From: Propionicimonas sp.
Lineage (GTDB): Bacteria > Actinomycetota > Actinomycetes > Propionibacteriales > Propionibacteriaceae
Length of the DNA stretch: 64,000 nucleotides
Assembly: GCF_029975155.1 (NCBI RefSeq)
Contig: NZ_JARKPQ010000160.1
Span: 37,782 to 101,781, forward strand
Direction: 5' to 3'
The notes below the pieces were generated by a model. The model was not told the DNA's origin and did not search any database. It saw only the letters and a program-made list of their open reading frames with translations. Made by a program: the position numbers and the translations under genes. Below are positions 4,314 through 20,109 of the stretch, in pieces (position 1 is the stretch's first letter; every line of letters begins with the position of its first letter).

Positions 4314-5471
4314 GTGGGAACTGCGTCCCAGAACTACCTCGCCATCATCAAGGTGGTCGGGGTCGGCGGCGGCGGCGTGAACGCCGTGAACCGGATGATC
4401 GAATCGGGCCTGCGCGGGGTCGAGTTCATCGCGGTGAACACCGACGCCCAGGCACTGTTGATGAGCGACGCCGACGTGAAGCTCGACATCGGCCGCGACC
4501 TCACCCGGGGTCTCGGCGCGGGCGCCGACCCGGCGAAGGGCCAGCAGGCCGCCGAGGACCACGCGGACGAGATCGAGGAGGTGCTCAAGGGCGCCGACAT
4601 GGTCGTCGTCACCGCGGGCGAGGGCGGCGGCACCGGCACCGGTGGCGCGCCCGTCGTGGCCAGGATCGCCCGCTCGCTGGGCGCGCTGACCATCGGCGTG
4701 GTCACCCGTCCGTTCAGCTTCGAGGGACGCCGCCGCGCCACCCAGGCCGAGGACGGCATCGGCACCCTCCGCGAAGAGGTCGACACCCTGATCGTCATCC
4801 CCAACGACAAGCTGCTGGAGATGACCGATCACCACGTGGCGATCCTCGACGCGTTCCGCCAGGCCGACCAGGTGCTGATGCAGGGCGTCTCCGGCATCAC
4901 CGACCTGATCACCACGCCCGGCCTGATCAACCACGACTTCGCCGACGTGAAGGCGGTCATGCAGAACGCCGGGTCGGCCCTGATGGGCATCGGCTCCGCG
5001 CGTGGCGAGGACCGGGCGCGCGCCGCCGCCGAGATGGCGGTCTCCTCCCCGCTGCTGGAGGCCAGCATCGAGGGCGCCCACGGCGTCCTGCTGTCCATCG
5101 CCGGTGGCTCCGATCTCGGCCTGTTCGAGGTCTCCGCCGCGGCGAACCTGATCGAGGCCGCCGCCCACGAGGATGCCAACATCATCTTCGGCACCGTGAT
5201 CGACGACGCGCTCGGCGACGAGGTGCGCGTGACGGTGATCGCCGCCGGCTTCGACGGCGGGCTGCTGCCGCGCAAGGCGCCCGCCCGCCCGGAGGTGCGC
5301 CGTCCCGAGCCGGTCGCGCCGCGTCCCGCCCCGGTGCCGCCGGCACCGGTGGTCGATGAGGAGCCCGACGAGCCCGCTCCCGTCGAGGAGGCTCCCGCCG
5401 AGCCTCGCGTGCGGCCGGTCGCACCGCCGGTCGACGACGACGACCTGGACGTGCCGGACTTCCTGAAGTAG
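4314..5471 (+). CDS. ftsZ: FtsZ, tubulin-like division GTPase
   Basis: Forms the cytokinetic Z ring. The N-terminal GTPase domain carries [16 protein letters not shown] and the tubulin signature [14 protein letters not shown] proline/acidic linker of about 60 residues leads to the conserved C-terminal tail DLDVPDFLK, which binds SepF and other partners. The ORF track begins at TTG 4206. I prefer GTG 4314 (product [13 protein letters not shown], 385 aa) because family members start a few residues before NYLA and an AAGGG box lies 8 nt upstream. GTG 4305, with GGAG 5 nt before it, is the alternative. Confidence 0.96.
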
Positions 5472-5485
5472 CCCTTCGGCACACA

Positions 5486-6172
5486 GTGTTCAGTTACCGC
5501 AACGACCCCGGCACCGATGGTGCCGGGGTCGCGTGCTGCGACGCGGTTGCGCCCGACGGCGGGGTGCTCGACCTCCGCGGCGCGGCCGACCGGGCGCTGG
5601 TCGCGGGCGAACTCGGCGTGCCGCTGCTCACCGTCCACCAGGTGCACGGTGATCGGGTGCTCACGGTGGACGCGGCCACCGACCCGGTGGCGCTGGCCGG
5701 CGAGCGGGCCGACGCGCTGGTCACCGCCGTTCGGGGCGTCGCTCTCGCCGTCCGGGTCGCCGACTGCCTGCCGGTCCTGTTCGCCGACGCCGCGGCCGGT
5801 GTGGCCGGCGCGGCCCACGCCGGCCGGGTCGGCCTCGCCGCCGGTGTCCTGCCCGCGACCGTCGCCCGGCTGACCGACCTCGGCGCGACCCGGATCACCG
5901 CCTGGATCGGTCCGCACATCTGCGGCGCCTGCTACGAGGTCCCGGAGTCGCTGCGGGACGAGTTCGCCATCGCCCACCCCGCCGCCGCGGCCACCACGAG
6001 CTGGGGCACACCGTCCCTCGACCTCGGCGCGGCCGCCGAGGCGCAGCTCGGCGCCCTCGGCTGCACGGTCGTCCGCGCCGATCCGTGCACCCGCACCACG
6101 CCCACGCTGCACTCCTACCGCCGCGACGGCGACCGTTCCGGCCGTCAGGCGGGCGTGGTCTGGCTGCCCTGA
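5486..6172 (+). CDS. pgeF: PgeF-like peptidoglycan editing factor / multicopper-family purine phosphorylase (YfiH/LACC1 family)
   Basis: DUF152-family enzyme of 228 aa. Relatives act as peptidoglycan-editing factors that keep L-Ser out of the stem peptide, or as purine nucleoside phosphorylases; the substrate here is not provable. Visible motifs are VHQVHGDRV, VRVADCLPVLF and GPHICGACYEVP, which supply the metal-binding His/Cys set. The usual HAGWRG is HAGRVG here, a small deviation. GTG start 14 nt after ftsZ. Placement between ftsZ and sepF is the standard actinobacterial arrangement. Confidence 0.9.
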   Translation: MFSYRNDPGTDGAGVACCDAVAPDGGVLDLRGAADRALVAGELGVPLLTVHQVHGDRVLTVDAATDPVALAGERADALVTAVRGVALAVRVADCLPVLFADAAAGVAGAAHAGRVGLAAGVLPATVARLTDLGATRITAWIGPHICGACYEVPESLRDEFAIAHPAAAATTSWGTPSLDLGAAAEAQLGALGCTVVRADPCTRTTPTLHSYRRDGDRSGRQAGVVWLP

Positions 6173-13136: not shown

Positions 13137-13519
13137 CCTCGCTGCTCCTCGACACGCAGGCGCTGCTGTGGCTGCTCAGCGACAGTCGGCGAATGGGTCC
13201 GCGTGCCAGGGCGTTGATCGCGTCGGCCACCAGCGTCCACTACTCGGCCGCATCGGTCTGGGAGATCCTGATCAAGTCCACCCTGGGGAAGCTTCGAATC
13301 GACGGTGACCTCGCGGCGTCGCTCAGGGCCGCGCATCTGCAGGAGCTGCCGATCACTGTTGACCACGCTCTCGCCGTCTCAACGGTGGACCTGCCGCACC
13401 GCGACCCCTTCGACCGGCTGCTGCTCACCCAGGCCGATGCAGAGGGAATGACCTTCCTCACGGCCGACGCGATTCTGCTCGGCACGGGACGCAGCGACGT
13501 CCGCGATGCCCGCGCGTAG
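13133..13519 (+). CDS. VapC-like PIN-domain toxin
   Basis: 128-aa PIN-domain ribonuclease of the VapC toxin type. The acidic metal-binding residues lie in LLLDTQALLWLL, SAASVWEILIK and HRDPFDRLLLTQA, and a FLTAD motif follows, so the catalytic set appears intact. ATG 13133 overlaps the antitoxin stop; the ORF-track start at 12968 runs through the shifted antitoxin. With the antitoxin apparently broken, this toxin must be weakly expressed, inactive, or controlled from elsewhere. Confidence 0.82.
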   Translation: MTSLLLDTQALLWLLSDSRRMGPRARALIASATSVHYSAASVWEILIKSTLGKLRIDGDLAASLRAAHLQELPITVDHALAVSTVDLPHRDPFDRLLLTQADAEGMTFLTADAILLGTGRSDVRDARA

Positions 13520-13634
13520 TGTCTTGTCTGCGCACGATGTCTCCCCGGTGGCCGAACCTAGAGCCGAAACGTACCTGGAGGCCCGCGAAGGCAAGGATTG
13601 ACCGCGGAAGCGAGTAGCCAGGCGATTCGGCTGG

Positions 13635-13640
13635 TAGTGT
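13635..13640 (+). promoter_or_regulatory. -10 hexamer upstream of the small lipoprotein gene
   Basis: TAGTGT, 29 nt before the GTG at 13670. TTGACC lies at 13598-13603, too far away to pair with it cleanly. Nothing else is seen in 13520-13669. Confidence 0.3.
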
Positions 13641-13669
13641 TTCGTTGAGACTTCGCGGAAAGAAGCATA

Positions 13670-13969
13670 GTGTCGCGTCGAGTGGCGGTCGTCGCCGCCT
13701 CGTTAGGAGCACTTCTGTTTTCCGCGTGCGGCCCGGATTCGAACATCTGGGTGGTCAACAACTCAGACCAGTACCTGTACCTCTACGTGCCGATGACTGA
13801 TGGAGCGTGGCAGAAGCTGACGGAGATGCCGCCGAGGTCACGAGGGCAGCAGAACTTCGTTGTCTCCGCTGGGAAATGCCTCCCCGACGCTTTCATTGCT
13901 GACAAGAATGGGAATGTTCTCAAGCGCATAGAAAAGCTGTGCTGGCACGATACCGTCGCTTTTCCCTGA
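13670..13969 (+). CDS. Small putative lipoprotein, unknown function
   Basis: 99-aa protein. A short basic start (MSRR) and hydrophobic stretch end at LLFSAC, a somewhat imperfect lipobox (Phe at -3), so Cys20 could be lipidated. The mature part (GPDSNIWVVNNSDQYLYLYVPM) reads as a small beta-rich domain with two further Cys residues (GKCLPD, KLCWHD). I do not recognise the family. GGAAAGAAG lies before the GTG. It is the first gene of the low-GC island and may belong with the secreted proteins downstream. Confidence 0.6.
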   Translation: MSRRVAVVAASLGALLFSACGPDSNIWVVNNSDQYLYLYVPMTDGAWQKLTEMPPRSRGQQNFVVSAGKCLPDAFIADKNGNVLKRIEKLCWHDTVAFP

Positions 13970-14018
13970 AGGCTCTGCACGCTCTTCTTCGTTCGCAGTG
14001 AACTGGCGGCCGGTCGGG

Positions 14019-14029
14019 TAGGCTAGTCT
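14019..14029 (+). promoter_or_regulatory. Overlapping -10 hexamers before the metallopeptidase gene
   Basis: TAGGCT (14019-14024) and TAGTCT (14024-14029) overlap in the 173-nt gap before the next ORF. No clear -35 is seen. Confidence 0.3.
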
Positions 14030-14142
14030 TCTCGGAATCCTCTATCTTTCTCTTTGGATCCGATGGAGTGGTCTGAACTACTGGAGCCTGGTCGCCAACT
14101 GCGCCGGCCGCCTTCCACCCTGCCCTCGGGTACCACACGACT

Positions 14143-15549
14143 TTGGTCGTTTCGCCGCGGGCGATCGTCCTTCTCGCGGTGACAACGGTTCCCAGTGCCG
14201 CCCAGCCAACTCCTACACCTCGGCCGGTCCCCGGACGCGACGACGTGGTAGCTACGCGGGGTTGGACGCGTCCGGTACCCGGCCCGAACCTGTTGGGGAA
14301 GGCAGAGCACGACACCACGGGCCCATCTGGGGCACCAGAGGTTCCTGAAGGACTGAGTCGTCCCGTTGAGCGTTTGCTGTCGGATGCCCGCTCGGGGAAG
14401 ATCTCCCGCGATCAGGCGCACGAGTTCGCCGTCGGGGCCTCAGTGGGAAGCCAGGGGATCCCAGTTCGCTACAGAGTGAAGACGCCCACGCGACTCGATC
14501 TGCAGGTGCTTGCGCTCACGGGTGCTCACTATCAGATCTCCGACGAGTCCGATGAGATCGCTCCGTCTCACCGGGCTGGCCCGCCCAGCTTCGCATGCCA
14601 AGTGAGTGGGTGGTGTGAACTCACCGGGCGTCACACGGCTGTTCTGTGGCCAGCGTCCGACTGGACGCAGGACGAGCAGCTTGACGTCGACCCTGCCGAC
14701 GGACGGCCCGACCACTACGCGAAGCTTATAGATCGCGCAGATCAGGCTTGGGATTATTTCAAGGACGATCTCGGCATGGAGGTGCTCGACCCGATCGTTT
14801 GGCACATGGGAGCGATGCCAGGCGGGACGATCAACTGTCCAGCCCACATCATTGCCGGCTCGGTGGAGTATCTGGCTATCCACGAGACTTTCCATCAGTT
14901 CCAGTGGACGTACCTCACAACCGCTGTCAATTCGGTACACTTCTTGGCCAACTACTTTAGCTTGAGTTGGTGGATTGAGGCTTCGGCGAGCTGGGCCACG
15001 AAATAGTTCGCAGTGGACGTCCTGGATCCGCAGCGAGTCGCTGCGAATCAACATCCAACCGGCGCTACGGAAAACATTGCTGAGGCGGCCCACATCCCAG
15101 AATTCCTGAACGGCGCAGGGCTGCCGCTTGATGACGACGATCCCGCCAACGAGCGACAGTACGGAGCCGTGGTGGTGGCGGAGTTCATGTCGCAGTACAC
15201 AGACGATCGCGACTTCGTGAAGAAGTCCTCCGTCTACCTGGAGGGCGACGAGTACCTCGACGGACTTGAGCAGATCGTGGGGACACTGGAGAACGAGGGC
15301 TACTGGCCGGCGTGGGCCCTAGCGGACATGTGGACATCGCTGTACCGGCTGTGCGACGACTCAGGCGACTCGTTCAACTCGATGCGGCTGCGCACGACCA
15401 GGGAGATGAGCGTGACGTTGCCGCTGGAGATGGCCGACCGGGCGGTGGAGGCGTGGATGCGTGAAGAGGTCGTGCCAGCCTGCGATCGGTTCGCCGCGGA
15501 ACCCATCCCGGGCTGTCTCGTCCGACGAGGCCTACCGCCAGCTGGGTGA
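14143..15549 (+). pseudogene. Secreted gluzincin-like metallopeptidase interrupted by an in-frame TAG
   Basis: Two ORF-track entries (14143-15006 and 15013-15549) are in the same frame and separated only by TAG at 15004. Together they encode about 468 residues. The N-terminus (MVVSPRAIVLLAVTTVPSAAQP, from TTG) looks like a signal peptide. The zinc motif is AIHETFHQFQW (HExxH), and WWIEASASW about 30 residues later gives a plausible third Glu ligand, as in gluzincins. The TAG falls three residues after that Glu region, so the truncated form keeps the zinc ligands but loses about 180 C-terminal residues. The family is not otherwise recognised. No suppressor tRNA is visible here. A recent nonsense mutation or a base-call error are both possible. 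Confidence 0.6.
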
Positions 15550-15667
15550 GGTCACCGGGAGGTGATCACCCACTTCCGGAAATGCGTCGCGGTCGCCATC
15601 GTCGTGGGCTCGATCCGCTGGCGGTCGCTGCTCTCTCGTGTCTGCGCCGTCGGGGTCAAGTTGGTCG

Positions 15668-15689
15668 GCCCGCGCGGGTTCGCGCGGGC
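15668..15689. terminator. Hairpin between convergent genes
   Basis: GCCCGCGCG-ggtt-CGCGCGGGC, a 9-bp perfect stem, in the gap between the peptidase remnant and the convergent response regulator. No T-tract. The weak ORF 15546-15746 over this gap is not supported. Confidence 0.4.
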
Positions 15690-15705
15690 ATCTGGTTGGG
15701 GCACC

Positions 15706-16362
15706 CTAGAGCAGGTGGAGTTCGCCGGCCCGTAGGGCCAGGGTGACGCGGTTGGTTGCGTCGAGCTTCTTGGTGAGGATTCCGATGTGGTACTTGACCG
15801 TGGCTTCGGACAGGTAGACCTGCTCGGCGATCCTCTTGTTGGTCAGCCCTTCAGCGAGCAGCTTGAGGATCCGGCTCTCGGTCTCGGTCAGTCTTGGGGC
15901 GTCTTCAGGTCGCAGCGGGGCGGTCAGCCGGTCGCGGACCTTGGGTGTGAGCACCGAGAGGCCGGAGCGGGCTGCTCGGATGGCGTCGGCGACGGCGTCG
16001 TGTGAGGTGTCCTTGTACAGGAAGCCGAGGGCGCCGGCGCAGTGCATGTCGGAGACGGTTTCCTGGCTGGTCAGTGAGGTGAGGGCGAGAACTCGAACTG
16101 AGGGTACTTGCTCGCGGATCAGCGCGGTCAGCTCGGCACCGCTCATGCCTGGCATTGCGACGTCGACCAGCATGACGTCGGGCGGGTCGGCGCGTGCGGC
16201 TTCGAGGGCTTCGGCGCCGTGCTGGTAGGTGTTGGTGATGTGCAGGTCGGGGTAGGCGTCGAGCAGTTTGGCCAGCGCGGTCCGGACGTACATGTCGTCG
16301 TCCACGATCACGACTTTGATGACTGCTGTGCTCCCAGTGGGATTCTGGCGCGGGTCATCCAT
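15706..16362 (-). CDS. NarL/FixJ-family response regulator
   Basis: 218-aa DNA-binding response regulator. The receiver domain starts VIKVVIVDDD, with the phospho-acceptor Asp in VMLVDVAMPG and the conserved Lys in FLYKD. The C-terminal LuxR-type helix-turn-helix reads LTETESRILKLLAEGLTNKRIAEQVYLSEATVKYH. ATG 16362 is preceded by AGGAGGA at 7 nt, so the longer ORF (301 aa) is rejected. It overlaps the 3' end of the kinase gene by 55 nt, so the two are co-transcribed. Targets are probably nearby divergent genes, by inference. Confidence 0.93.
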   Translation of the reverse strand: MDDPRQNPTGSTAVIKVVIVDDDMYVRTALAKLLDAYPDLHITNTYQHGAEALEAARADPPDVMLVDVAMPGMSGAELTALIREQVPSVRVLALTSLTSQETVSDMHCAGALGFLYKDTSHDAVADAIRAARSGLSVLTPKVRDRLTAPLRPEDAPRLTETESRILKLLAEGLTNKRIAEQVYLSEATVKYHIGILTKKLDATNRVTLALRAGELHLL

Positions 16363-17432
16363 CGCTTGTCCTCCTGCAGCGTGTTGAGTTCGCCGCCGAT
16401 CGGGGTGAGACGTTCGCGGACCCCGAGTAGTCCCATTGCGGAGTCGCCGGAGCCTGTCCGGGTTCCGCCGGGTGCCACGGTGTCGTTGATGAAGACCATA
16501 TCGACCGAGTGGTGGTCGATGCTGAGGATTAGCGCGCAGGGGCCGGACTTGCTGGCGTGCCGTTCGATGTTGGAGGTGGCCTCGCCGACCACGACTTTGA
16601 TGGTGGGCCACAGTTCGGGAGGGATCGTGTCAGGGTCGCCTTCGATGGTGAGTGCGACGCTGAATCTGATTGCTTCGAGGGCTTTGGCGGCCTCGCGGAG
16701 GACGTCGCCGGGCGAGCCGGCTTCGTCGGCCTGGCCGGGGGTTTCGGGTTGCGGGTCGCGCAGGAGGTTCATCAGTAGGCGAAGCTGCGCGAGTGCGGCC
16801 TGGATCTCGCCCACGACCGCGTTCATCTCGGAGGGGTCCAGGCTCTGTTGGGTGACCTGTGCGCGGAGAGCGGCGCGGGACAGGTCTCTGGCGACGGTGT
16901 CGTGAAGATCCCGGGCCAGAGATAGCCGCTGCTGGACCAGGGCGGCCGCTTGTGCCTCGGATTGGGCGTGGCGGAATGCGGCGAAGGCGTTGCCGATCAG
17001 CCACAGGACTGCGATCAAGGCCGCCCACACGACACCGCCGAGAAGGAATCGGGCGCTGCCGGGGTAGTCCTGGTACTGCAGGGCCACCAGGATCAGGCCG
17101 TAGCATGCGGTCATCCAGCGGCGCGCCAGCCTCAGGTTCCGCATCCCGGTGCCGAGGATCGGGATGAGCGTCGCGTACTGGCCCAGGGAAACCGAACCTG
17201 TTGGTACGAGGAAGTAGCCGACCAGCAGCAAGCCGAGCGCCACACCGGCGATCTTGGGCCAACGGACCGTGCAGCCGGCAGCCACACACATGGCGATATC
17301 GAGGGCCAGCGCCCAGGGCTGGCTGACCTGCAGACCGAGGGCAAGGCTCAGCACGGCGAGCATCGCCGCCAGGAAGACGTCCAGACCGCCGCCGAGCAAC
17401 AGCTTGGGGACGGATCGGAGCTGCTGGTCCAT
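16308..17432 (-). CDS. NarL-type sensor histidine kinase (HisKA_3)
   Basis: 374-aa membrane sensor kinase. About four to five hydrophobic helices occupy residues 12-150, with no large extracellular domain, so it probably senses a membrane or small ligand. The dimerisation/phospho-acceptor helix is LSLARDLHDTVARDLSRAAL. The ATPase domain has GEATSNIERHA (N box) and GLLGVRERLTPIGGEL (G box). AGAGGTGG precedes the ATG and TAGTCT lies about 30 nt upstream. It is the partner of the overlapping response regulator and is divergent from the small-peptide genes. Confidence 0.92.
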   Translation of the reverse strand: MDQQLRSVPKLLLGGGLDVFLAAMLAVLSLALGLQVSQPWALALDIAMCVAAGCTVRWPKIAGVALGLLLVGYFLVPTGSVSLGQYATLIPILGTGMRNLRLARRWMTACYGLILVALQYQDYPGSARFLLGGVVWAALIAVLWLIGNAFAAFRHAQSEAQAAALVQQRLSLARDLHDTVARDLSRAALRAQVTQQSLDPSEMNAVVGEIQAALAQLRLLMNLLRDPQPETPGQADEAGSPGDVLREAAKALEAIRFSVALTIEGDPDTIPPELWPTIKVVVGEATSNIERHASKSGPCALILSIDHHSVDMVFINDTVAPGGTRTGSGDSAMGLLGVRERLTPIGGELNTLQEDKRWMTRARIPLGAQQSSKS

Positions 17433-17596
17433 GCCACCTCTCTGGTTCGGCCAAGACGACAGACTAGCCAGATGGGTGAACCGCGGGGCCGTTTCGCCTA
17501 TCCGACTGGGTGGATCTTCCCAATAGCCCTCACCCGAGTGGCTGGCTCTGCTCTGTCGGCATTCCGCGACGACGGGGCCGGTGGGACTCTCTGTCC

Positions 17597-17770
17597 ATGA
17601 AACAAGTACGCAGGCATGCGAGCCGGCTCCTCGCGGCCCAAATGCTCGGCATCGCGGCCGTCATCCCGATCGCGGCAACAACGGTGGCCAGCGTGAGCCC
17701 GCCCACTGCACAGAGCATCTGCGACGTCCTCCCGCTGTTTCCAGGCTGCCCCGCCAGACCCAAAGCCTGA
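17597..17770 (+). CDS. Small secreted cysteine-containing peptide (candidate signal or effector)
   Basis: 57-aa ORF divergent from the histidine kinase. MKQVRRHASRLLAAQ... is a basic start followed by a hydrophobic stretch (MLGIAAVIPIAATTVASVSPPTAQ), like a Sec signal peptide with possible cleavage after TAQ or nearby. The remaining segment SICDVLPLFPGCPARPKA is very short, proline-rich and has two Cys that could form a loop. I do not recognise it. The ribosome-binding site is weak, so the gene is only moderately supported. A pheromone sensed by the adjacent kinase is one possibility. Confidence 0.45.
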   Translation: MKQVRRHASRLLAAQMLGIAAVIPIAATTVASVSPPTAQSICDVLPLFPGCPARPKA

Positions 17771-18013
17771 TGCTCGCACCCGACCGCCTTCCAGGGCTGA
17801 TCTGTCAGCCGGATTGTGTTCGATGGAGTCGATGGTCTTGATGAGGGGTGTTTGCGCCTCGGCGCTCGGCCTGCGAAGCCTCCTCGGGAAGCTGGTGCCT
17901 TATCAAGCCAGCCACTCGGTAAACGGGCGCCCGGAGAACGGGAACCAGGGAGTAGCGTCCTCTTCGGGGCATGGACCTGGCGGCCCCAGAAGTATCGACG
18001 AACGGAGTTGACG
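17771..18013. other. Gap with no supported gene
   Basis: 243 nt between the small peptide and the next miniprotein. Overlapping short ORFs (17581, 17805, 17814, 17816) have no family features. No hairpin or clear promoter was found, although AGGGAGTAGCGT at 17948-17959 contains a weak -10-like TAGCGT. Confidence 0.4.
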
Positions 18014-18181
18014 ATGAAACCGGTGACCATCGCACTTACCCTCAGTGCGGCCATTTGTGCAACTCTCCTGTTGTTCCATGTTGCAGAAAACTTGGCAGTG
18101 CTGTGGTGGGCAGTGATACTTGCTAACGCGACTTGGGTCATTGTAGGAGTGGTCAGGAAGGGTCAAGATTCCGACCAATAG
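18014..18181 (+). CDS. Two-helix membrane miniprotein
   Basis: 55-aa product MKPVTIALTLSAAICATLLLFHVAENL..., with two hydrophobic helices at about residues 4-21 and 26-46 and a charged tail VRKGQDSDQ. ATG 18014 has GGAG 6 nt upstream; the longer ORF-track start at 17816 is rejected. It sits 37 nt before the cysteine-rich precursor gene, so a role as immunity protein or export helper is conceivable, but nothing in the sequence proves it. Confidence 0.55.
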   Translation: MKPVTIALTLSAAICATLLLFHVAENLAVLWWAVILANATWVIVGVVRKGQDSDQ

Positions 18182-18218
18182 TCAGCGGAAGAACGCCAAT
18201 CAACAAAGGAGTTGTGGA

Positions 18219-18932
18219 ATGAGAAAGACAATGCTTGCGGCCATCGGAGTGGCAGTGTCGCTGAGTCTGGCGGTAGTTACGGCGCAACCCACCGCAGCAC
18301 ACCCGCGACTACCTGCCTCACCCATGTCACGGATCGACGTACGCAGCGCTGCGGTGGATCTTCAGAAGAAGGTCGAGCAGAGGGACTCGCGGCAGCACTT
18401 GCGGCGCTCTGAAGCGGTACGAACTCTCAAGGCAGCGTATCCACGCCTGGCGCTTTCTGGCTTCGGCGAGGTCGCAATCAATCAGGCGACTGGCTACCTA
18501 GATCACAGCACTCGGATCATCAGCGCCCCGGTTGTAGGTGGCAACCTAATGCTTGGATCAAATGTCACGGTGTTCGTCGGTCCCGATGGCAACTTGATCG
18601 ACTCCTACGAGATACTATTTGTGCCAATGGATGAAAATTCAGGCCGCACGGTAATCTGGCGTGCCGGCACAATAGTCTTCGACAAGGTGACGACCAACGA
18701 TGGGTCAGTGTTGGATCCTACTGACCCGGTCAATGTTGGTTTCAGCCTTTCCAAGTTCAACAAGTGTCTTGCCAGTCAGGGGATCGCGGCTTGGGTCGTT
18801 ACTGCGATCACAGCAGCTTGCAGTGTTGCATGCGCTGCCACGGTGGGGACCGGATGCGCCGTTTGCATCATCGCCCTAGCGCTCGTAGCTGGCCCGACCC
18901 TCGCGCTGTGCTTAGGGCGTGCGCAACAGTAG
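18219..18932 (+). CDS. Secreted precursor with C-terminal cysteine-rich hydrophobic domain (halocin-C8-like bacteriocin candidate)
   Basis: 237-aa protein with AAGGAG 7 nt before the ATG. A classical signal peptide (MRKTMLAAIGVAVSLSLAVVTAQPTAAH) is followed by a soluble region of about 150 residues. The last 60 residues are hydrophobic with six Cys: NKCLASQGIAAW, then CSVACAATVGTGCAVC, then LALCLG. The spacing C-x3-C-x7-C and the terminal CLG resemble the mature halocin C8 domain as I recall it, where the N-terminal part of the same precursor is the immunity protein. The N-terminal domain could therefore be an immunity module. Base composition is visibly lower in GC than the flanking core genes. 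Without a database search this is a pattern-level assignment; an unrelated secreted membrane-active protein remains possible. Confidence 0.6.
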   Translation: MRKTMLAAIGVAVSLSLAVVTAQPTAAHPRLPASPMSRIDVRSAAVDLQKKVEQRDSRQHLRRSEAVRTLKAAYPRLALSGFGEVAINQATGYLDHSTRIISAPVVGGNLMLGSNVTVFVGPDGNLIDSYEILFVPMDENSGRTVIWRAGTIVFDKVTTNDGSVLDPTDPVNVGFSLSKFNKCLASQGIAAWVVTAITAACSVACAATVGTGCAVCIIALALVAGPTLALCLGRAQQ

Positions 18933-18951
18933 CTGGGCCAAAGCGGCCACA

Positions 18952-19611
18952 ATGAAAGAGGAGCGTGCGAAGGTCGTCGCGTACGTGTCGGCCCTCGCCG
19001 TTCTCCTTAGTGGGTGCGCGCACTCTGGGGCTGAACAGCCGCAGGTACCGTTGCCACGCGCTTCTCAACGCATCGCGAACGAGTGCCCGGAGGGTCTGCC
19101 CGACAGGGTGGCCCAGATGGTTGCAGCGGAGGGACTGCGTTCTAGCGGCGTTTTTGCCAGCGACAACGTGATCTTGGCAACTGCACACGGCGTCTCTAGC
19201 GCCGCCATCGTCGACGTCTCTGGGGGTCGCATCCACGCACGCGTCGTGATGCGCGATGAGTCGTTGGATTATTCGATCCTGGTTACAGCCGACCGGCTGC
19301 CTCGCGCAGGCCGAGTTCGGATCCAAGGGACAAGCCTCACCGTGGATGAACCCGTGGTGGCCGTCATGGCCGGGTCGGGCACTGCCGAGTGTGTCCCTGG
19401 GGTCGTGCTGGAGAGCCTCCCCAACCGAGTGCGAACCTCCGTGCCAGTTCAGTCTGGCGAGTCAGGATCGCCGGTGTTTGACCGCACCGGAGCGCTTGTC
19501 GGGATCATCCTCGCCCGAGGAGAAGGAAATCAAGGTTCCGTACTACTTCCTGCCGCGCGGTTCGCGAAGCAACTTCTGGACGCGGTGAGGACACATGCCG
19601 CGGACGCCTGA
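18952..19611 (+). CDS. Trypsin-like serine protease lipoprotein
   Basis: 219-aa protein with a lipoprotein signal peptide (KVVAYVSALAVLLSGC, a perfect LSGC lipobox, Cys22). The catalytic triad is plausible: His in ILATAHGVSSA, Asp in ESLDYSILVTAD, Ser in SGESGSPVFDRTGALVG (usual GDSGGP, here GESGSP). The trypsin-fold order and spacing support the S1/HtrA-like class. No PDZ domain is seen. I use ATG 18952 rather than GTG 18919. It lies 19 nt after the cysteine-rich precursor, so it could process that precursor outside the membrane. Confidence 0.72.
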   Translation: MKEERAKVVAYVSALAVLLSGCAHSGAEQPQVPLPRASQRIANECPEGLPDRVAQMVAAEGLRSSGVFASDNVILATAHGVSSAAIVDVSGGRIHARVVMRDESLDYSILVTADRLPRAGRVRIQGTSLTVDEPVVAVMAGSGTAECVPGVVLESLPNRVRTSVPVQSGESGSPVFDRTGALVGIILARGEGNQGSVLLPAARFAKQLLDAVRTHAADA

Positions 19612-19881
19612 TGCTGAGCTCTTCGAACACACGGCCGGCTGGCTCGCCAATCACGCCATCGGACAGGACACGCCCTCAGCTTCACCGTGGCCATCGGTGT
19701 CCTCGCCACCATCGCCGCCGCCATCACCGCGATCCCGCCCGTCATCTACGCGACTGGACCCCGTCACTGTCATGCGCACACCCTGGATGTCCCTCGGCTG
19801 ATCATCCTGGCGGCGTTAACGTTCGTCCTCATGGCGATCGACTCAGGTCTTCACCGATCACGCTCGCGATGGCGAAGCTAA
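19595..19881 (+). pseudogene. Possible frameshifted small membrane protein
   Basis: One frame from ATG 19595 gives a natural-looking start (DAELFEHTAGWLANHAIGQDT). About 10 nt later another frame continues with SFTVAIGVLATIAAAITAIPPVIYATG and a second hydrophobic stretch RLIILAALTFVLMAID. Neither frame alone makes a sensible protein, so one base appears lost near 19670. Alternatively the second part is a separate 64-aa protein from GTG 19687. From 19882 to the tRNA at 20027 nothing else is seen. Confidence 0.35.
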
Positions 19882-20026
19882 CGTCCGCGGCGGGTGGCAT
19901 TAGCAGGCGGGCCGCGCGTATGTAGCCCGGAGTCGAAGTGGACGGGTGTAATGCCTAGTCAGCGAGGGGCCGCGGCTTCGCGCGCGGAGGGCGGGGTGGG
20001 AAGAGGAATCTTCGCGTCAGACCCAG

Positions 20027-20109
20027 TACCGGGAAGGGGAGTCGAACCCCTACGCCCTTTCGGGCAGACGGGTTTGAGCCGTCCGCGTATACCATTCCGC
20101 CACCCCGGC
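20027..20109 (-). tRNA. tRNA-Leu (anticodon CAA)
   Basis: The reverse strand folds as a class II tRNA. Acceptor GCCGGGG pairs with TCCCGGT (two G-U pairs), the D-stem is GCG/CGC, and the anticodon arm is GACGG-CTCAAAC-CCGTC with CAA. A long variable arm (CCCGAAAGGG) and the T-arm AGGGG-TTCGACT-CCCCT follow. Discriminator is A; CCA is not encoded. Its 3' end points toward the low-GC island at 12.9-20.0 kb. Confidence 0.95.

Follow-up and report, generated by a model that had tools for sequence, protein, structure and literature searches.

The window analysed here is a stretch of 64,000 nucleotides from a Propionicimonas sp. contig (NZ_JARKPQ010000160.1). One of its genes raised the question of what a secreted protein with a hydrophobic, six-cysteine tail might be doing in this organism. 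An earlier note on this DNA had likened the product to halocin C8, in which bacteriocin and immunity domain share one precursor, and had remarked that such a locus would be of a new type. The answer proposed here, with a probability of about 70%, is that the gene and the small gene in front of it encode a Sec-secreted bacteriocin precursor and a separate immunity protein, and that the pair travels as mobile cargo.

Precursor gene and protein

The ORF at 18219–18932 on the forward strand started with ATG, stopped with TAG and encoded 237 amino acids, and a plausible Shine-Dalgarno sequence (AAAGGAG) was found upstream. By sequence reading, all of the parts noted earlier were present, in the order signal peptide, soluble middle and hydrophobic six-Cys tail (Table 1). 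Residues ~5–22 were hydrophobic and were followed by an Ala-x-Ala-like site around residues 24–28. The GRAVY was −0.14 for residues 29–174 vs. +1.27 for residues 175–237. The six cysteines (residues 183, 201, 205, 213, 216, and 231) were the only ones in the protein and all lay in the tail, with the framework C-x17-C-x3-C-x7-C-x2-C-x14-C. This spaced motif occurred once in the 81,732 residues of all window ORFs of at least 100 aa in six frames. The "final CLG" of the earlier note was present, but it was not quite final, as six residues followed the last Cys (CLGRAQQ). In most homologues, a conserved aromatic residue stood shortly N-terminal of the first tail Cys; given a cut before F175, the predicted mature peptide would have a mass of ~6164 Da with three disulfides.

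The window protein (P0001) matched no Pfam or NCBIfam model even at E ≤ 10, and a PDB sequence search gave no match. Structure modelling, which the earlier note had proposed, yielded an AlphaFold2 model from six sequences with a mean pLDDT of 41, too poor to be used. Its topology of an N-terminal helix, a β-sheet and three tail helices was taken as a mere hint.

Table 1. Features of the locus in window coordinates.
Feature	Position	Strand	Basis
Sensor kinase and NarL-type response regulator, possible regulator (speculative)	15706..17432	-	ORFs inside the variable region
Two-helix membrane protein, 55 aa, candidate immunity protein	18014..18181	+	37 bp upstream of the precursor
Putative bacteriocin precursor: signal peptide, soluble propart and six-Cys tail	18219..18932	+	237 aa ORF, homologues, six invariant tail Cys
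Signal peptide region, residues 1 to ~28	18219..18302	+	Sequence reading: MRK, hydrophobic run, AxA-like site
Soluble propart, residues 29–174, weakly conserved	18303..18740	+	GRAVY −0.14; β-strand-rich in the low-confidence model
Predicted mature peptide, residues ~175–237, 63 aa	18741..18929	+	Conserved aromatic before the first tail Cys; predicted cleavage site
Trypsin-like serine lipoprotease, possible processing enzyme	18952..19611	+	Trypsin_2, lipobox LLSGC
tRNA-Leu(CAA), right edge of the island	20026..20109	-	ARAGORN; synteny resumes here in 8 relatives

Homologues and conservation of the tail

Homologues were gathered stepwise, first from actinobacterial genomes, then by tblastn on plasmids, and further from phages, viral contigs and Streptomyces genomes. 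Two further actinobacterial genomes contained them: G041 (locus L003) and G353, which had two copies (L024 and L025). The plasmid homologues detected by tblastn belonged to Arthrobacter agilis, Pseudalkalibacillus, B. velezensis, Streptomyces BHT-5-2, Terribacillus, B. pumilus (pBP6000) and L. brevis. Others were found in three SPbeta-like B. subtilis phages, in 21 viral contigs and, by a search with a three-sequence alignment, in three named Streptomyces genomes. Two candidates, L002 and L004, were in unrelated frames and were discarded as chance matches. The earlier note had proposed a look for the locus in relatives, and the family indeed turned up in actinobacteria, Bacillus, Lactobacillus plasmids and SPbeta-like phages.

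The tails were plainly alike, as seen from KFNKCLASQGIAAWVVTAI..CSVACAATVGTGCAVC in the window protein vs. KFSKCLDRMGVASWVITSI..CSGVCVITLGTACITC in B. pumilus, and likewise in the Streptomyces tails. Across 15 aligned members, the six tail Cys were the only invariant columns; together with the single occurrence of the motif in the window, this marks the pattern as more than chance. For a Streptomyces pair, dN/dS was 0.025 in the tail vs. 0.33 in the propart. A conserved N-terminal part with a variable Cys tail had been named beforehand as speaking against a bacteriocin; the reverse was found, a conserved tail behind a variable soluble part. The broader claim of a secreted precursor of bacteriocin type, whose Cys tail is conserved and which has a small membrane protein next to it, was supported.

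Broken frames were observed in two members, those of L. brevis (L068) and Pseudalkalibacillus (L029). In the latter, at 4849–5645 of the plasmid locus, the signal peptide and the body of the precursor were in different frames and the small two-helix gene was not found nearby, so this is either a decayed copy or a sequencing error.

Comparison with known families

The C-x3-C-x7-C sub-spacing of the window tail was, as remarked earlier, the same as that of halocin C8. However, the x7 loop varied from 7 to 11 residues among the homologues, and therefore this spacing is not diagnostic of halocin C8. The search against halocin-C8-type domain models that the earlier note had proposed was negative: TIGR04449 (halocin C8, cut-off 24 bits) gave no match to P0001 at E ≤ 10 and nothing above its cut-off in 98 relatives, while a control halocin C8 sequence matched it at E = 1.1e-16. 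When the 15 tails were compared by hhalign with those of four halocin C8 sequences, the score was 10.8, vs. a mean of 10.5 for shuffled columns, and 41 of 100 shuffles scored as high; the full-length profile comparison gave a probability of 0.6%. Halocin C8 is an archaeal peptide of 76 aa with 10 Cys starting with C-x2-C, whereas the window tail has six Cys and a first spacing of x17. Specific kinship with halocin C8 was rejected on the missing model match, the profile score within the shuffled background, and the different Cys count and framework. The resemblance that remains is the order of parts, i.e., the mode of working: like ProC8, this is a secreted precursor with a soluble part and then a Cys-rich hydrophobic tail containing C-x3-C-x7-C, and the gene occurs on plasmids. 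Halocin C8 itself is exported by the Tat system (PMC11509114).

The nearest named family was TIGR04450 (Gpos_C8_like, putative immunity/bacteriocin fusion bifunctional protein), which is possibly a distant kin judging from its matches to the relatives. Three of 15 relatives matched it at E ≤ 10 (E = 0.051, 1.8, and 5.1), the best reaching 13.2 bits, far under the cut-off of 27 bits, and the window protein had no match. The proteins share a length of ~240 residues, and the two longest matches were co-linear over soluble part and tail (L033 77–221 to profile positions 88–235 of 240, and B. pumilus 92–223 to 110–239). The present family differs in that immunity is more likely due to a separate small membrane protein. 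No TIGR04450 members were found in 199 actinobacterial genomes, and the literature search returned no paper naming TIGR04450 or the fusion family's name and no function for TIGR04450. Since NCBIfam already contains this Gram-positive C8-like family, to which some relatives have weak matches, calling the locus a new type was too strong.

A true homologue was PHROG 33667 of SPbeta-like phages, listed as of unknown function, which was matched by P0003 at E = 4.4e-5 and by the window tail at E = 0.0071 over the Cys region. It has eight tail Cys vs. six and a longer third loop. Judged from the six tail Cys and the sequence homology, the window protein and phrog_33667 are one family.

The small two-helix membrane protein

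In 11 of 13 loci, the precursor had an ORF of 45–95 aa with two hydrophobic helices no more than 400 bp away, the background at random positions in the same loci being 17.9% (binomial P ~3e-7, in which independence is overstated because the loci are partly related). These small proteins formed several groups that were not detectably alike. Similarity inside the groups linked the phage-type proteins and Terribacillus (E = 2.5e-9), an Arthrobacter-type pair (E = 2e-9) and a Streptomyces set. The 55-aa protein of the window matched none of the small proteins of other loci, the best E-value being 0.57. In genome G353 (L024, 185–680), two tandem paralogous 76-aa two-helix proteins were observed downstream of one precursor, with a mutual similarity of E ~1e-8.

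Two loci contained decayed precursors. In the one of Streptomyces NBC_01214 (L065, 3487–4246), the bulk of the soluble part was deleted and one Cys was missing, and of that on B. velezensis pDMB05-1 (L069, 1998–2335) a truncated tail alone remained. The adjoining small membrane gene was intact in both. The small protein of L069 was 87% identical to that of its relative L031, with 10.5 synonymous and 7.5 non-synonymous changes (dN/dS 0.16). The usual fate of immunity genes is that protection is kept after the weapon is lost. An intact small gene beside a decayed precursor is as expected for retained immunity.

The earlier note had pointed to the immunity domain inside the halocin C8 precursor. 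A bifunctional precursor of this type, with the tail as bacteriocin and the soluble part as immunity, as in HalI/HalC8, would agree with the order of parts, the shared sub-spacing and the weak, partly co-linear TIGR04450 matches. However, the soluble part is where the homologues vary, the profile comparison showed no similarity to halocin C8, and the separate small membrane gene is nearly always there and outlasts the loss of most (L065) or all (L069) of the soluble part. We consider this explanation improbable; on the sequence evidence, immunity appears better assigned to the small membrane protein.

The neighbouring protease

The earlier description of the flanking genes, a small membrane protein before and a protease after, was correct for this locus, but the protease is no conserved part of the locus type. 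An alternative GTG start of the protease at 18919 overlapped the 3′ end of the precursor gene. The ORF from this start (18919–19611) matched Pfam Trypsin_2 at E = 2.2e-10, and triad-like motifs (TAHG, DYSIL, and GESGSP) were recognized by reading. Neither a counterpart of the protease nor a GDSG-type motif was found beside 18 homologue loci, and a search of 60 relatives gave nothing save one marginal match (E = 9e-4). The protease was rejected as a conserved processing partner, as no similar protein lay beside those 18 loci, and it is peculiar to this locus. It is possible that it cuts the precursor here. Because no such protease gene accompanies the homologues, general secreted proteases may suffice. 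Precursor/protease pairs have recently been reported in haloarchaea (PMC12893001). The PAMP protein of Propionibacterium jensenii is a secreted propeptide of 198 aa whose C-terminal part is freed extracellularly by proteases (PMC5756557). Its likeness to the window precursor, which a protease adjoins, lies in the release by proteases, and the link is in the way of working alone.

The island beside tRNA-Leu

Synteny with eight relatives of the genus broke off in the 11.6–13.5 kb stretch of the window and resumed exactly at the tRNA-Leu(CAA) gene. The region between (13500–20025) was hypervariable, and the eight relatives had different content there; in relative L088, ~750 bases took the place of the 6.5 kb found here. 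The GC content of the precursor region was 57%, vs. 65–73% around it. A search of the genus detected the precursor in none of its other genomes. Both the position of the gene pair in a tRNA-Leu island and its absence from the relatives speak for the mobile bacteriocin proposed here.

Two other elements of the island were observed. A long frame at 14143–15549 was interrupted by one in-frame TAG (15004–15006); its product would have an N-terminal hydrophobic stretch and a HETFH zinc-protease-like motif, and it is probably a recent pseudogene. Divergent from the sensor-kinase gene (16308–17432), a putative small secreted peptide of 56 aa with two Cys was encoded at 17600–17770, which may serve as a signal or represent another small peptide.

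The sensor kinase and regulator nearby, together with the hydrophobic C-terminal helices, would also fit a role other than that of a weapon: the tail may tether the protein to the membrane or envelope of the producer itself, or the peptide may be a signal for the two-component system of the island. This is rather unlikely. The six invariant Cys and the strong tail conservation go beyond an anchor's need, some homologues sit on tiny plasmids without such a kinase, and decay of the precursor with the small gene retained is not expected from either role.

Plasmid and phage carriers

The homologues outside the window were located on plasmids, in SPbeta-like phages or on chromosomes. The smallest carrier plasmid was the 5.7-kb pBP6000 of B. 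pumilus, and no paper naming this plasmid was found. The L. brevis homologue was on the 6.2-kb plasmid pUCCLBBS449_G (L068, 961–2438), in the order of small two-helix ORF, frame-broken precursor and thioredoxin-fold protein. The last was nearest to the PedC/BrcD bacteriocin disulfide isomerases (E = 1.8e-9, below the model cut-off), and the precursor had a KKKKKKKTKK stretch just ahead of the Cys tail. Tiny plasmids and SPbeta-like phages are carriers typical of bacteriocins.

Among the SPbeta-like phages, the precursor gene was found in Goe11, 13, and 14 and sublancin in SPBc2, SPbetaL2, Hyb1phi3Ts-SPbeta, and SPR, and the two sets were disjoint. On the few cases of these seven phages, this suggests that one bacteriocin replaces another. 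Sublancin 168 of SPbeta is a disulfide bacteriocin carried by a prophage, and immunity to it is provided by a dedicated protein, SunI (PMC8270828). The present family would share these traits, being phage-borne and predicted to have disulfides and dedicated immunity proteins. Unlike it, sublancin 168 is a glycosylated peptide of 37 aa that is exported by an ABC transporter, has no sequence relation to the family and resides in other SPbeta-like phages.

Carriage by phages and prophages could also point to a protein that serves mobile elements like a holin or in superinfection exclusion, and a holin model, PF07332, gave one weak match (E = 0.0097, under the cut-off). However, this match was limited to a single member, the tail comes after a signal peptide and a long soluble stretch, and most carriers are plasmids or chromosomes without surrounding lysis genes. 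This makes such a role very improbable.

Proposed mechanism and implications

The bacteriocin and immunity reading builds on what the sequences establish: the precursor architecture, the tail conservation across phyla, the co-location of the small membrane gene, and mobility. From these, we infer secretion, cleavage site, disulfides, killing, target, and immunity. The Sec system would secrete the precursor, and its signal peptide would be removed. The soluble propart may keep the hydrophobic tail soluble and inactive until proteolysis near residue 175, close to the conserved aromatic F175, frees a peptide of ~60 residues and 6.16 kDa. Its six cysteines would form three disulfides, and its hydrophobic helices would attack the membrane of related Gram-positive competitors, while the 55-residue two-helix membrane protein would shield the producer. 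The pair would travel as mobile cargo, in the tRNA-Leu island here and on plasmids or SPbeta-like prophages elsewhere. Against this stand the lack of a match between the window protein and any curated bacteriocin model, the poor structure model, the heterogeneity of the small proteins, the broken frames of two members, the small number of phages behind the mutual exclusion with sublancin, and the lack of a dedicated processing gene common to the family.

A wider proposal, for which we would put the chances at about even, is that the precursors form an undescribed family of bacteriocins, disulfide-bonded and served by dedicated immunity proteins of two helices. The family would pass between Actinomycetota and Bacillota by way of plasmids, tRNA islands and SPbeta-like phages, and in some phages it would replace sublancin as a weapon and maintenance system. 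If this is right, a number of "hypothetical proteins" encoded by mobile elements from soil, food and phages would be explained by one gene pair, which would represent a new class of small disulfide antibacterials, with a weapon of ~60 residues and a protection of often ~55, and SPbeta-like phages would swap bacteriocins to arm, and perhaps to hold on to, their hosts.
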